Part shown: in pieces, positions 3,989 through 10,758 of the stretch
How positions within the stretch are numbered: position 1 is the first letter of the stretch
Layout: the number at the start of each line of letters is the position of its first letter
Origin: Bradyrhizobium sp. WBOS07
GTDB taxonomy: Bacteria > Pseudomonadota > Alphaproteobacteria > Rhizobiales > Xanthobacteraceae
NCBI RefSeq assembly: GCF_024585165.1
Contig: NZ_CP029008.1
Coordinates: 2,852,001 to 2,916,000, forward strand
DNA: 64,000 bases
Direction of reading: 5' to 3'
Position numbers and translations under genes: made by a program
Notes under the pieces: model-generated
Seen by the model: only the letters and a program-made list of their open reading frames with translations
Databases searched by the model: none
Told to the model about the DNA's origin: nothing

Positions 3989-6900
3989 ATGCGGATTGAG
4001 CGGCGCCACACCACCCAGGGACAATCACCTTACGCCGGAATCGATTTCCGGCTGACCACGTCGGAGATCAGGAATCCCGACGGCTCGGTCGTGTTCAAGC
4101 TCGACAATGTCGAGGTGCCCACGGAATGGTCGCAGGTCGCCTCCGACGTGCTCGCCCAGAAGTATTTCCGCAAGGCCGGCGTTGCCGCGCGCCTGAAGAA
4201 GGTCGAGGAGGAATCCGTCCCCTCCTTCCTGTGGCGTTCCGTGCCCGACACCGAGGCGCTCGCCGCGCTCCCTGAGAAGGAGCGCTATGTCAGCGAGCTC
4301 AGCGCCAAGCAAGTGTTCGACCGCCTCGCCGGCTGCTGGACCTATTGGGGCTGGAAGGGCAAGTACTTCTCGTCCGACGAGGACGCCCAGGCCTTCTACG
4401 ACGAGCTGCGCTACATGCTCGCGATGCAGATGGTCGCGCCGAACTCGCCGCAATGGTTCAACACCGGCCTGCACTGGGCCTATGGCATCGACGGCCCCGG
4501 CCAGGGCCATTATTACGTCGACCCCTTCACCGGCAAGCTGACCAAGTCCAAATCCGCCTACGAGCACCCGCAGCCGCACGCCTGCTTCATCCAGGGCGTC
4601 GGTGACGACCTCGTCAACGAAGGCGGCATCATGGACCTCTGGGTCCGCGAGGCCCGCCTGTTCAAGTACGGCTCCGGCACCGGCTCCAACTTCTCGCGCC
4701 TGCGCGGCGAAGGCGAGAAGCTCTCCGGCGGCGGCCGCTCGAGCGGCCTGATGAGCTTCCTCAAGATCGGCGACCGCGCCGCCGGCGCGATCAAGAGCGG
4801 CGGCACCACCCGCCGCGCCGCCAAGATGGTCGTGGTCGACGTCGATCACCCCGACATCGAGACCTATATCGACTGGAAGGTGAAGGAGGAGCAGAAGGTC
4901 GCCGCCCTCGTCACGGGATCCAAGATCAACCAGAAACACCTCAAGGCGGTGCTGAAGGCCTGCGTCAACTGCGAGGGCTCGGGCGACGATTGCTTCGACC
5001 CCGAGAAGAACCCTGCCCTGCGCCGCGAGATCAAGCTCGCGCGCCGCAGCCTCGTGCCCGACAACTACATCAAGCGCGTCATCCAGTTCGCCAAGCAGGG
5101 CTACAAGGACATCCAGTTCGACACCTACGACACCGACTGGGACTCTGAAGCCTACCTCACGGTGTCGGGCCAGAACTCCAACAATTCGGTCTCGCTGCGG
5201 GACGACTTCCTGCGCGCGGTCGAAACCGACGGCGACTGGAATCTGGTCGGCCGCACGACCAAGAAGATCACCAAGACGCTGAAGGCGCGCGACCTCTGGG
5301 AGAAGATCGGCTACGCCGCCTGGGCCTCGGCCGATCCGGGCCTGCACTTCAACACCACCATGAACGACTGGCACACCTGCAAGGCGTCCGGCGACATCCG
5401 CGCCTCCAATCCGTGCTCGGAATACATGTTCCTGGACGACACGGCGTGCAACCTCGCCTCCGCCAACCTGCTGACGTTCTACAACATCGAGACCAAGCGC
5501 TTCGACGTCGAGGGCTATGAGCATCTCTGCCGGCTCTGGACCATCGTGCTCGAAATCTCGGTGATGATGGCGCAATTCCCGTCGAAGGCGATCGCCGAGC
5601 TCTCCTACGAGTTCCGCACGCTCGGCCTCGGCTACGCCAATATCGGCGGCCTCTTGATGACCATGGGCCTGCCCTACGACAGCAAGGAAGGCCGTGCGCT
5701 CTGCGGCGCGCTGACCGCCGTCATGACCGGCATCACCTACAAGACCTCGGCGGAGATCGCTTCCGAGCTCGGCACCTTCCCCGGCTACAAGAAGAATGCC
5801 CAGCATATGCTGCGCGTGATCCGCAACCACCGCCGCGCCGCCCACGGCCAGTCCAACGGCTACGAGGCGCTCAGCGTCAACCCGGTGCCGATGGACCTCG
5901 TCTCCTGCCCGCAAGCCGACCTCGTCAGCCATGCCCAGGCGGCCTGGGATGCGGCGCTCGAGCTCGGCGAGCAGCACGGCTATCGCAACGCCCAGACCAC
6001 GGTGATCGCGCCGACCGGCACGATCGGCCTCGTGATGGATTGCGACACCACCGGCATCGAGCCCGACTTCGCCCTGGTCAAGTTCAAGAAGCTCGCCGGC
6101 GGCGGCTACTTCAAGATCATCAACCGCGCGGTCCCCGCAGCGCTGCGCGCGCTCGGCTATCGCGAAGCCGAGATCGCGGAGATCGAGGCCTACGCCGTCG
6201 GCCACGGCTCGCTCTCCAACGCGCCCGGCATCAACGCCTCGACCCTGAAGGCCAAGGGCTTCACCGACGAAGCCATCGCCAAGGTCGAGAAGGCGCTGCC
6301 GACCGCGTTCGACATCAAGTTCGCCTTCAACAAGTGGACCTTCGGCGAGGACTTCATCCGCGACCAGCTCGGCATCGGCGCCGAGGCGATCGCGGCGCCC
6401 GGCTTCGACCTGCTCCAGGCCGTCGGCTTCACCAAGCGCGAGATCGAGGCGGCCAACGTCCACATCTGCGGCGCGATGACGGTGGAAGGTGCCCCGCACC
6501 TTAGGCCTGAGCACTATCCGGTGTTCGACTGCGCCAATCCCTGCGGCAAGATCGGCAAGCGCTATCTGTCGGTCGAGAGCCACATCCGCATGATGGCGGC
6601 GGCGCAGCCCTTCATCTCGGGCGCGATCTCCAAGACCATCAACATGCCGAACGACGCCACGGTGGAGGACTGCAAGTCCGCCTATATGCTGTCGTGGAAG
6701 CTCGCATTGAAGGCCAACGCGCTCTATCGCGACGGCTCCAAGCTCAGCCAGCCGCTGAACTCGCAGCTCATCAGCGACGATGAGGACGAGGACGATGCGG
6801 TCGACCATCTCTACGAGAAGCCGCTTGCCGCCCGCACCGCCCAGGTCTCGGAAAAGATCGTCGAGAAGCTGGTCGAGCGCATCATCGTGATGCGCGAGCG

Positions 6901-7756
6901 CGAGAAGATGCCGGACCGCCGCAAGGGCTACACCCAGAAGGCGGTCGTCGGCGGCCACAAGGTGTACTTGCGCACCGGCGAATACGACGACGGCCGTCTC
7001 GGCGAGATCTTCATCGACATGCACAAGGAAGGCGCGGCGCTGCGCTCCTTCATCAACAACTTCGCCATCGCGGTGTCGCTCGGCCTGCAATACGGCGTGC
7101 CGCTGGACGAATATGTCGACGCCTTCACCTTCACCCGCTTCGAGCCGGCGGGCCCCGTGCAGGGCAACGACAGCATCAAGTACGCGACCTCGATCCTCGA
7201 CTACGTCTTCCGCGAGCTCGCGGTGAGCTACATGTCGCGCTTCGACCTCGCCCATGTCGACCCCAACGAGACCGGCTTCGACGCGCTCGGCAAGGGCGTC
7301 GATGAAGGCAAGGAGCCGGACGAGGACGGCGGCCACCACGCCACCCGCCTGGTCTCGCGCGGCCTCACCCGCTCGCGGACCGACAACCTCGTCGTGATGC
7401 GCGGCGGCTCGGCCGCGGTCACGCAAGGAAACGACAGCGCGCCTAGCGGTGGCAGCAAGGTCACGGCCCTGGCGCACGGTGCCTCAGCCCGCGCCGGCGA
7501 CGCCATCGAAGGCGCCGTTGCCCTGAAGCAGGAAGTCCAGCACGACCTCTCGCCGACGGAGAAACTGGAAGCCCTGCAATGGAGCAAGGCTGGCAGCGCC
7601 GCGGTTGCGGTGCCCTCCAAGGCGGAGCGCCGCGCCGAAGCCAAGGCCAAGGGCTACGAGGGTGAGATGTGCAGCGAGTGCGGCAACTTCACGCTGGTGC
7701 GGAATGGGACCTGCATGAAGTGTGATACGTGCGGCAGCACGACGGGGTGTAGCTGA
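3989..7756 (+). CDS. nrdJ: Vitamin B12-dependent (class II) ribonucleotide reductase
   Basis: A 1255-residue cytoplasmic enzyme that reduces ribonucleotides to deoxyribonucleotides using adenosylcobalamin as radical source, so it supplies DNA precursors without oxygen-dependent radical formation. Near residues 100-260 are class II motifs such as [11 protein letters not shown] and [14 protein letters not shown]. Around residue 474 are NPCSE and CNLASANL, which carry catalytic cysteines. The C-terminal 30 residues form a zinc ribbon (CSECGNF, then [13 protein letters not shown]) with a redox Cys pair near the end. Length fits alphaproteobacterial NrdJ. The ATG follows AAGGACGGGG at 3973-3980. 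It is monocistronic, with a structured leader. A 3.4-kb open frame on the opposite strand is a GC-bias artefact. Confidence 0.97.
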
Positions 7757-7787
7757 TACCAGCAGCGCAAGTCGCCCGGAGGCATCG

Positions 7788-8033
7788 ATGCCGGTTGCAT
7801 TACGCCAGGGCGGCTTGCGCTACTACTTCTTCTCGAACGAGGGGCAGCCGCCCGAGCCGGCGCATGTCCACGTCAAAGGCGGCGGCCGTGATGCCAAGGT
7901 CTGGCTTGAGCCGGCCATATCGATCGCCGACAGTTACGGCTTCAATCCGCGGGAACTTTCGAATATCCTGCGCGTCGTCGAGGACAACCGCGATCTTCTC
8001 CTGAAGGCTTGGCATGAGCATTTCGGCAACTAG
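7788..8033 (+). CDS. DUF4160 protein, possible toxin-like partner of a two-gene module
   Basis: An 81-residue protein with the DUF4160 signature: RYYFFSNEGQPPEPAHVHV near the start (His-containing, after an aromatic strand), followed by KVWLEPAISIADSYGF and a helical C terminus. The ATG at 7788 follows GGAGG at 7778-7782; an in-frame upstream start inside nrdJ has no support. The reading frame overlaps the next gene (DUF2442) by 20 bases. DUF4160-DUF2442 pairs recur in bacterial genomes and are often suspected to be toxin-antitoxin modules; I know of no biochemical activity I could assign. It starts the accessory patch after nrdJ. Confidence 0.82.
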   Translation: MPVALRQGGLRYYFFSNEGQPPEPAHVHVKGGGRDAKVWLEPAISIADSYGFNPRELSNILRVVEDNRDLLLKAWHEHFGN

Positions 8034-8262
8034 CGTTCGCTTTGACGAACATACGATGTGGGTCGAATTGTCGGACGGCCGGACGCTCGGTGTCCCCCTC
8101 GCCTGGTTTCCGCGGCTGCTGCACGCCACGCCCGCCGAGCGCGACCAGGTCGAATTGAGCCGCGTCGGGCTGCATTGGGACGCACTCGACGAGGACATTT
8201 CCATCGCTGGCCTGCTTGCCGGACGCGGGGATGTTACGCGATCGACGGAGCATGCGGCGTAG
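8014..8262 (+). CDS. DUF2442 protein, partner of the DUF4160 gene
   Basis: An 82-residue protein matching DUF2442: an N-terminal beta region with VRFDEHTMWVELSDGRTL, the conserved VPLAWFPRL turn, and a C-terminal LHWDALDEDISIAGLL segment. This fold is related to the N-terminal domain of the NE0471 protein and is often found beside DUF4160 or in antitoxin-like positions. The start ATG at 8014 lies inside the upstream gene, so the two are translated from one message. If the pair is a toxin-antitoxin unit this is the likelier antitoxin, by genome context only. Confidence 0.8.
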   Translation: MSISATSVRFDEHTMWVELSDGRTLGVPLAWFPRLLHATPAERDQVELSRVGLHWDALDEDISIAGLLAGRGDVTRSTEHAA

Positions 8263-8340
8263 TCTAGCGGGATGATCCGCTGGCCGGCCCCTCCAATCGA
8301 CGAAGGACTTGAAGGTCTCTGCCGGATCGAGCCTGGACCC

Positions 8341-8424
8341 CGTCGGATGGGTAGCGTGAAAGCGAAACCCATCAACAGCAACCAAGGCAACGATGGGTTT
8401 CGCAGGGGCTCAACCCATCCTACG
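8341..8424. repeat. Intergenic palindromic repeat, copy 1 (left of the AAA-DUF4435 gene)
   Basis: Starts CGTCGGATGGGTAGCG and ends GGCTCAACCCATCCTACG, so the ends are inverted. Inside, AGCGAAACCCATC is mirrored by GATGGGTTTCGC. A second copy in the same orientation lies at 10069-10150, on the other side of the AAA-DUF4435 gene. No open frame or transposase is associated with it. Confidence 0.7.
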
Positions 8425-8450
8425 CGCTTCGCTCATCCGGACTGCTTGCC

Positions 8451-10064
8451 ATGACGTTCAATTTTTCTATTCCGACCTCAACGGGAGAAATGAAATTCGA
8501 AGTCGCTCCGGGGACGTCCCTTTTGTTTGTCGGAGCGAACGGTGGTGGCAAGACCCGACTCGCGGTATTCATCGAGGATGCCTTAAAGCGAAAGGCTCAC
8601 CGAATTTCCGCTCACCGCGCATTGAAGCTCGATCCCACCGTTATCAAGATAAACGAAGAATTCGCGCTTCGTGCCCTTCATACCGGCAATAGACAAGACT
8701 CCTTTTTGATCACTGATCGGGCGATTGCCCGATGGAACAGTAAGGCCGCGACGACCCTGCTCGATGACTATCAATATCTGATCTAGGCACTCTTTGCCGA
8801 CCAAACAAACGTCGCTCTGGCTGCGTATAGGGCCAGCAAGGATCGTTCAGGGAACGGCGTTTACCCGGAGTGCTCGACCAAGTTTAAGAAATTGATCGAA
8901 ATATGGGATCGCCTGCTTCCGCACAGAAAGCTTCGGGTTAGTGGTGATGATATTGTGGTCGTTGCCGCCTCAGGCGCGCAGTATTCCGCAGCGGAAATGA
9001 GCGACGGCGAACGCGCAACGTTCTATCTGATCGGTCAAGCACTGATGGCGCCGCCGGATAGTCTCATTATCTTTGATGAGCCGGAACTTCACATCCATCG
9101 TTCAATCATGTCGCGGCTGTGGGATGAACTGGAAGCGGCTAGGTCTGACTGCGCGATAGTCCTTATCTCGCATGATTTGGAATTTGTCGCCTCGCGGGAC
9201 GGACGAAAATACATTCTTAGAGACTATGAGCCGCCGAGAAACTGGACGATCGAACCCGTGCCAGAAGACACGGGTTTTCCTGAAGATATCGCGACCCTCA
9301 TTCTTGGGAGCCGCAAACCGATCCTGTTTGTCGAAGGCTTGAGCGAAAGTCTGGACCGAGCCATTTATCGGGCTTGTTATCCAGATTGGACCATAATCCC
9401 GCGAGGCTCGTGCGAAGAGGTCATTCACGCGGTTACCTCGATGCGGGCCAACGCTGCCCTTACCGCGACAATGTGTTCTGGCATCGTCGATTCCGACGCC
9501 TATGACTCTAATGAAATCCAATTTCTGATGAGCAAAGGTATCGCTATTCTTCCAGTTTCCGAGATAGAAAATCTCTTTCTTCTACCGGACGTCCTCAGAG
9601 CAATTGGGTGTGCAGAGGGTTTTGAGGGAGCAACAGTCGAGTCGAAAGTCTCTGACATTCTAGATGAACTCTTCGATCAAGCTAAAATGCCCGCAAATCA
9701 AACTCCGGTCGTCCTGAGGTACTGTCGAAGAAGGATAGATCGTACGCTAAAGAAGCTAGATCTCCAGAGTGCCAAAGACGTTTCGACGCTTGCCGCTGAT
9801 TTCGTGTCAAAAACAACCGCCATTAACGTCGAGGATCTGGCTAGACTGGCGACGAGAAGCATCCAAAAAGCCATCGAAGATCGAAATGCCCCCGAGTTGC
9901 TCAAGTGGTATGACAACAAAGGCATTCTCGGAATTGCTTGCAAGGCAAAGGGAACGACCAAGAGACAATTCGAGCAATGGATTGTACGCGCGTTGCGTAA
10001 CAACAGTGCGCCCGGCGTCTCCGAGGTTATTAGAGGGATACTCCCTCCCATTGTCGCGTCTTAA
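8451..10064 (+). pseudogene. AAA ATPase-DUF4435 fusion (PARIS/OLD-like), interrupted by an in-frame TAG
   Basis: One frame from the ATG at 8451 to the TAA at 10062-10064 would encode 537 residues, except for a TAG at 8784-8786 (codon 112). Before the stop is Walker A GANGGGKT (residues 28-35). After it, in the same frame, come the ABC-type signature MSDGER (183-188), Walker B LIIFDEPELHIH (205-216) and H-loop LISHD. A DUF4435 TOPRIM-like domain then follows, with FVEG (Glu295) and the acidic pair in VDSDAY (Asp347, Asp349). This is the architecture of anti-phage ATPase-nuclease proteins; merged AriA-AriB (PARIS) is the nearest named system, and a generic AAA-DUF4435 protein the alternative. 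Base composition is AT-richer than in the neighbours, suggesting transfer. A restart at TTG 8892 would lack Walker A. Dead gene, sequencing error or stop readthrough cannot be told apart here. Confidence 0.75.
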
Positions 10065-10068
10065 AGAC

Positions 10069-10150
10069 CGTAGGATGGATAAAGCCCTTGCGAAACCCAA
10101 CTTTCCACCCAAGACCATTGATGAGTTTCGCAAGAGCTCAGCCCATCGTA
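10069..10150. repeat. Intergenic palindromic repeat, copy 2 (right of the AAA-DUF4435 gene)
   Basis: Starts CGTAGGATGG and ends AGCTCAGCCCATCGTA, with internal GCGAAACCCA mirrored by TGAGTTTCGC. Its right half (GATGAGTTTCGCAAGAGCTC and onward) matches the right half of the copy at 8341-8424 with few changes and in the same orientation. It begins five bases after the stop codon of the interrupted ATPase gene. Confidence 0.7.
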
Positions 10151-10242
10151 TGAGCAGAAATTGCCTTTGCCGTCGAACCCTTCCCTCCTAAACTGACTCC
10201 GCCGGCATGTGTCCTGACGGTCGGTAGAAGCGGAGTCGAGCT

Positions 10243-10758
10243 ATGCCCAAACCGGAAAGCTTCCCGATCGAGAAGATCTTCGTACCTACGAAGCAGAGGA
10301 AAGCCATCAAGCCCGCCACCGTCGCGGAGATCGCGGAAAGTATCCTGGACATCGGACAACAGACACCCATCTCCGTTCAGCGCGACGGAGATCGCCTCGT
10401 GCTGGTCGAGGGACTGCATCGGTTAGAGGCCTGCAAGGCGCTCGGCGAGACCACCATTCTCGGGGTCGTCGTCACGGAGGAGTTTGCTCAAGCCAAGCCG
10501 CTACTCGCCGAACGCCCCGAAGTCGAGGCGGAGCGCCTCAAGATGGCGCGATTGAAGCAGTTGCGCCTGGAGAAGGAAGCCGCGGAGGCATCGGTGGCGG
10601 CCTTGAAGGGCGCTGGCGCAGCCGAAGCCTCTCGCGCCCGTTCGGCGACAGGCGTTCGCAGCAATCCGAAGGCATCAACCGGCCGGACTGCGAAACCCGC
10701 GCCGAAATCATTGTCAGCCTGGATCGATCAGCAAAAGGGCAGCGGCGGCCGCTATTGA
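10243..10758 (+). CDS. ParB N-terminal-domain (ParB/sulfiredoxin-fold) protein
   Basis: A 171-residue protein. Residues about 5-95 form a ParB/Srx-like domain: a start like FPIEKIFVP, a helix TVAEIAESILDIGQQTPISV, and the nucleotide-binding box VEGLHRLEACKALGE in place of the usual GERR/GHRR sequence. The rest is a charged helix (EAERLKMARLKQLRLEKE) and a basic, low-complexity tail. It lacks the central DNA-binding region of chromosomal ParB, so it is not a partition protein in the usual sense. Such stand-alone domains occur in mobile and defence-like neighbourhoods, and this one closes the accessory patch. Molecular function is not known. Confidence 0.75.
   Translation: MPKPESFPIEKIFVPTKQRKAIKPATVAEIAESILDIGQQTPISVQRDGDRLVLVEGLHRLEACKALGETTILGVVVTEEFAQAKPLLAERPEVEAERLKMARLKQLRLEKEAAEASVAALKGAGAAEASRARSATGVRSNPKASTGRTAKPAPKSLSAWIDQQKGSGGRY

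Follow-up and report, generated by a model that had tools for sequence, protein, structure and literature searches.

PARIS anti-phage systems are detected, according to PMC9122126, by the combination of an ATPase of the AAA_21 or AAA_15 type with DUF4435. The same study reports single-gene PARIS fusions, states that deletion of ariA or of ariB is non-toxic, and describes mutations in the ATPase that abolish defence in E. coli PARIS. In the current model, as set out in PMC12409363, AriA keeps AriB inactive until a phage trigger frees AriB to cleave tRNAs, so that control in PARIS already lies within the protein.

The window analyzed here is a stretch of 64,000 nucleotides from the genome of Bradyrhizobium sp. 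WBOS07 (contig NZ_CP029008.1, positions 2,852,001 to 2,916,000), and all coordinates below are counted from its first base. It contains a frame that resembles merged PARIS (PADLOC profile AriAB, PDLC02982) in the order of its domains, with AAA_21 followed by DUF4435/TOPRIM, in its length, and in its coverage of profile positions 25-567 of 570, but that differs from it by an in-frame stop at codon 112. With the two-gene PARIS of E. coli (ariA plus ariB) the frame shares the components (AriA profile, E = 1.2e-12; AriB profile, E = 8.8e-08), although in the window these belong to one polypeptide, and to a broken one. OLD and Gabija GajA also combine an ABC-type ATPase with TOPRIM, and one GajA profile matched weakly (E = 0.0023); however, the window frame has DUF4435, of the AriB type, as its nuclease part, and it matched the AriAB profile far better.

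An interrupted frame of the merged PARIS family

Translation of positions 8451-10064 of the forward strand yielded one frame of 538 codons, terminal stop included, in which the sole internal stop was a TAG at codon 112 and no frameshift was present, exactly as a sequence-only reading of this stretch had described it. The following features were recognized in this frame:

8451..8786, forward strand: 5' part of AriAB, 111 codons plus the in-frame TAG; Walker A at codons 28-35 (8532-8555)
8784..8786, forward strand: in-frame TAG, codon 112
8787..10064, forward strand: 3' part of AriAB, 425 codons plus stop
8892..10064, forward strand: open frame after the stop, with a TTG start, 390 aa (P0002 in the protein database)
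9000..9014, forward strand: signature SDGER, codons 184-188, after the TAG
9063..9080, forward strand: Walker B, codons 205-210, after the TAG
9171..9173, forward strand: H-loop His, codon 241, after the TAG
9312..9605, forward strand: DUF4435-matching stretch, profile positions 1-98 of 238
9333..9335, 9489..9491 and 9495..9497, forward strand: TOPRIM-like acidic residues E295, D347 and D349, respectively, after the TAG

The AriAB profile PDLC02982 was the top PADLOC match for each half of the frame, the 111 residues before the stop corresponding to profile positions 25-146 (E = 1e-17) and the 425 residues after it to positions 148-567 of 570 (E = 2.7e-135). Since these are adjoining positions of one AriAB profile, the two halves are one gene, with no loss at the junction. 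Within the part following the stop, both AAA_21 (43.8 bits) and DUF4435 (32.2 bits) scored over their Pfam cut-offs (27 in each case), and the window frame thus agrees with the earlier proposal of a PARIS-like AAA-DUF4435 fusion: it joins an AAA ATPase and DUF4435 in one chain, which is the domain rule for merged PARIS. The reading frame of the window copy is interrupted by the TAG at codon 112.

The stretches that we take to be Walker A, the signature, Walker B, the H-loop and the TOPRIM-like residues had been placed by the sequence-only reading on either side of the TAG, Walker A before it and the others after it, and this arrangement was recovered. All of them, E295, D347 and D349 included, fall on columns that are conserved or invariant across the family, so that the key residues are indeed intact apart from the stop; E295 is probably equivalent to E26 of E. 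coli AriB. A sequence search of solved structures returned no chain named AriA or AriB; the matches were mostly ABC-type ATPases, and those with weak E-values also included kinases, DnaC, a ribosome hibernation factor and an unnamed "AAA family ATPase". Judged from the profile and domain matches, the gene is a single-gene PARIS (a merger of the AriA ATPase and the AriB TOPRIM nuclease), that is, a member of a known family.

Distribution of the internal stop among relatives

The genome of the strain, a single contig of 6,727,433 bases, contained no match to AriAB other than that of the window. In order to place it in the genus, 265 genomes were searched, with five candidates scored per genome, and 12 matches were obtained at E <= 1e-20: the window copy, four close full-length relatives (G136, G241, G025 and G237; 65-67% identity), six distant relatives (26-33%) and a remnant in G106. 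A stop within the match occurred in the window copy only; the other 11 matches lacked one, the copy of G106 being broken otherwise. The four close relatives matched the AriAB profile with E-values of 2e-157 to 5e-200 and are uninterrupted, with lengths of 533-535 aa, showing that the interrupted frame of the window is not a chance frame. A named genome contig search gave two loci, L031 being the same contig stretch as that of G136 (L002) and counted once. Around E = 1e-4, a few matches to the ATPase part contained a stop (e.g., in G215 and G145); as they cover the ABC-type stretch only, they were taken for other ATPases and rejected as AriAB copies.

The remnant in G106 (L012) reads in frame for 80 codons, after which only residues 88-117 follow, in another frame, and it is on these grounds an independently broken AriAB copy within the genus.

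At the level of the order, 397 genomes (three candidates scored per genome) gave 14 matches at E <= 1e-20, three of them shared with the genus search, and the internal stop was again confined to the window copy (0 of the 13 others). Moreover, the position of the TAG was compared across an alignment of 112 relatives of 515-600 aa, taken from the best 120 of 1990, eight of which were left out for their length, including the window's own 390-aa fragment. A sense residue occupied the column in 112 of 112 relatives, and the residue was identical in 111 of them. Intact copies therefore exist, the nearest among the best 120 of 1990 being approximately 70% identical. The record of this gene in the protein database is the 390-aa frame (P0002), found on five contigs, which constitute neither independent support for the TAG nor a refutation of it. 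In sequence terms, the window copy is a broken member of merged PARIS by descent.

Age of the lesion

On the evidence of the frame and of its relatives, the window most probably carries a merged PARIS gene recently inactivated by a nonsense mutation. The 425 codons that follow the TAG contained no further stop or frameshift, and the window copy was changed at only 3 of 138 conserved columns (those on which at least 98% of the remaining alignment rows agree), all three located after the TAG; both observations point to a recent nonsense pseudogene, and of the three options left by the sequence-only reading (a freshly killed gene, a sequencing error, or a stop that is occasionally read through) the first is the best supported. 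The median relative departs at approximately one of the conserved columns, and a rate as high as that of the window copy was matched by only 7 of 112 relatives, which may point, if only weakly, to decay already under way or to an earlier relaxation of constraint.

In a tree of 70 of the 113 alignment rows, the end branch of the window copy measured 0.44, against a median of 0.18. Within its own clade the end branches were 0.42 (P0015), 0.36 (P0013), 0.22 (P0005) and 0.17 (P0003), so the window branch is long yet not unique. Nonsynonymous distances between the window copy and the four close relatives were 0.284-0.424 before the TAG and 0.215-0.251 after it, while those among the four relatives themselves were 0.119-0.347 and 0.132-0.275, respectively. 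As the values for the post-stop part fall within the range seen among the relatives, this part shows no excess divergence. For most pairs the synonymous distances were saturated, and the age of the loss is for this reason a rough one and carries no date; by a rough estimate, had more than approximately 0.02 neutral substitutions per site accumulated after the loss, departures would be more numerous than those seen. An old pseudogene was considered unlikely despite the long branch, given the lack of a second stop or frameshift and the mere three changes in 138 columns, and a recent loss appears to be the best fit.

If the gene was lost in this way, the ribosome would end at codon 112 and release a useless 111-aa fragment containing Walker A, whereas any product started after the stop would be without Walker A and would not be a working sensor. 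The strain would thus be without PARIS defence from AriAB, and the gene would await further decay or replacement. By analogy with PARIS of E. coli, the ATPase of intact members of the family would be expected to sense a phage anti-restriction protein and then to release the TOPRIM nuclease, which would attack host tRNAs.

Alternative explanations of the in-frame TAG

An error of sequencing or assembly would give the same pattern as a recent loss, the living strain then having an intact, ordinary merged PARIS gene, and the intact appearance of the rest of the gene would suit it. We nevertheless regard such an error as unlikely: the genome is assembled in one contig of 6.73 Mb and is 99.92% complete, and what interrupts the gene is a clean in-frame stop, not an indel. 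Indels are the commoner type of error in finished assemblies.

It is very improbable that the TAG divides a gene which still works in two pieces, a second start after the stop giving a C-terminal protein that acts together with the N-terminal piece in the manner of two-gene PARIS. A 390-aa frame does follow the stop, and the database includes it as a predicted protein; the break, however, lies inside the ATPase and not at the boundary between AriA and AriB, which makes an internal restart unlikely. Walker A and Walker B would sit on different chains, and in E. coli PARIS mutations of the ATPase abolished defence, according to PMC9122126. No clear ribosome site was seen by eye at the TTG start (8892) and none at the main ATG, so an argument from ribosome sites cannot separate the two starts.

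The sequence-only reading had also raised the idea of a toxic nuclease held back by a stop that is occasionally read through. Such a functional gate, in which low-rate readthrough of the amber codon would supply a little full-length AriAB and limit a costly abortive-infection protein, would need the preserved post-stop sequence and key residues that are in fact observed, but we give it only a very slim chance. Its premise of toxicity is at odds with the non-toxic deletions of ariA or ariB reported in PMC9122126. The genome was surveyed for a suppressor tRNA, as the same reading had advised, and no CTA anticodon was present among the 46 of 47 tRNA matches that could be read (Rfam search, ARAGORN reading); the 47th match is partial and was not called by ARAGORN, and visual inspection of its anticodon loop showed that it is not CTA. 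This survey starts from Rfam matches, and a tRNA missed by Rfam would be missed in it as well. RF1 (prfA) is present over the cut-off, and TAG is the stop of 12 of the 38 genes in a crude gene set of the window, the neighbouring DUF2442 gene also terminating with it. TAG is an ordinary stop in this genome, where neither a suppressor tRNA nor a reassigned TAG was found. Moreover, the stop is unique to the window copy among the strong matches, while a programmed readthrough would be expected to keep it in relatives. Readthrough or recoding of codon 112 was rejected on the combined evidence of the tRNA set, RF1, TAG usage and the relatives. Searches of the literature on stop codon readthrough in anti-phage defence, and on pseudogenised defence genes, hotspots and premature stop codons, returned nothing related, as judged by titles and the beginnings of abstracts. 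The variant in which leaky readthrough of the UAG rises on infection, e.g., through disturbed termination, making the stop part of the trigger, is likewise very improbable, although the intact post-stop region would be compatible with it.

Genomic neighbourhood

A merged PARIS gene inactivated by a nonsense mutation remains the preferred reading for the window copy. The following features lie around it:

3989..7756, forward strand: nrdJ-like ribonucleotide reductase, which we take to be nrdJ; it forms the conserved left border of the variable spot
7722..8033, forward strand: DUF4160 gene, accessory in the nrdJ-ParB_N interval
8014..8262, forward strand: DUF2442 gene, accessory in the nrdJ-ParB_N interval
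8340..8429, no strand assigned: palindromic intergenic repeat, shortly before the start of AriAB
10068..10150, no strand assigned: palindromic intergenic repeat of the same family, just downstream of AriAB
10243..10758, forward strand: ParB_N-like gene (Pfam E = 0.027, below the cut-off); conserved right flank

The G+C content of the AriAB gene was 51.4% vs. 64.9% for the window, and the gene was probably acquired horizontally. Promoter-like sites numbered 0 (shuffle mean 1.4) and terminator-like sites 3 (mean 2.5), and a search of positions 7700-10300 against Rfam gave no match. The pair formed by the DUF4160 and DUF2442 genes, which in the window directly follows nrdJ, recurs in L112 and partly in L117, and a DUF2442 gene is located downstream of AriAB in L002. 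L080, L083 and L087 have palindromic repeats similar to those of the window close to their ParB_N-like gene.

AriAB directly follows nrdJ in all four close full-length relatives of the genus, and in G025 it is in turn followed by the ParB_N-like gene as well. In G023 and G087, nrdJ and the ParB_N-like gene enclose other cargo, consisting of a small frame in G023. The cargo of G087 (L148) includes a frame of 194 aa (182-766) that corresponds to the truncated front part of an OLD/AriA-like ATPase and looks like another decaying defence gene. No match to nrdJ was found in the 1.5 kb fetched around the broken AriAB of G106.

Cargo of the nrdJ-ParB_N interval

The 5 kb downstream of nrdJ were taken from 40 of the 254 genomes with nrdJ (loci L111-L150), hand-picked mostly by nrdJ identity and in some cases for a known ParB_N-like gene; for G025, G023 and G087 the cargo was known before the choice was made. 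The ParB_N-like gene followed nrdJ in 34 of these 40 loci, at distances of 476 to 4454 bases. A total of 114 frames was obtained, of which 40, mostly longer ones and coming from 30 loci, were scanned with PADLOC. Matches at E <= 1e-5 were found for 20 of the 40 frames, in 16 of the 30 loci, some of the matches (ATPases, kinases) being generic; with the knowingly picked AriAB of G025 the count becomes 17 of 31 loci among the 40. None of 10 ordinary genes of the window had a PADLOC match, in a control of limited size that was not matched to variable intervals.

The PADLOC-positive cargo mostly differed between loci and comprised a CBASS cyclase, Drt6, another reverse transcriptase, HEC-07 with an OLD-like ATPase, other OLD-like ATPases, a PD-T4-6-type kinase, TIR-TM, bSEFIR, AbiTii, PDC-S05 (twice), PDC-S73 and a weak capP, together with PDC-S66, which was present in L121 and also in L113, where it lies next to the TIR-TM gene. 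Pfam domains examined in 71 of the 114 frames included AAA_21 in six, TIR_2 in four and AAA_15 in four, as well as ordinary cargo, represented by Phasin_2 in three, Response_reg in two, a transporter in one and a histidine kinase in one. Long frames with no PADLOC match at E <= 1e-5 were present in L114 (68-2803), L139, L115 and L132 (911, 743, 605 and 592 aa, respectively), and are candidates for undescribed defence genes or for unrelated cargo.

Taken as sampled, the nrdJ-ParB_N interval looks like a defence hotspot of the genus, with part of its cargo unrelated to defence, and gain, decay and replacement of genes would be expected there. No account of such a site was found among the publications listed in literature searches on Bradyrhizobium, nrdJ and rhizobia; the one listed on antiphage systems of rhizobia concerned Sinorhizobium prophages.

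Implications

As a broken copy, the AriAB gene of this strain does not belong in a count of active immunity, and PARIS would be overcounted by profile scans in which the 390-aa remnant is called. Its surroundings may be of greater importance than the gene itself, the hotspot being the more useful by-product of its analysis. If a full survey bears the hotspot out, the nrdJ-ParB_N interval would be a constant location in which to look for new defence genes and a site at which the gain, breakage and replacement of such genes could be studied.
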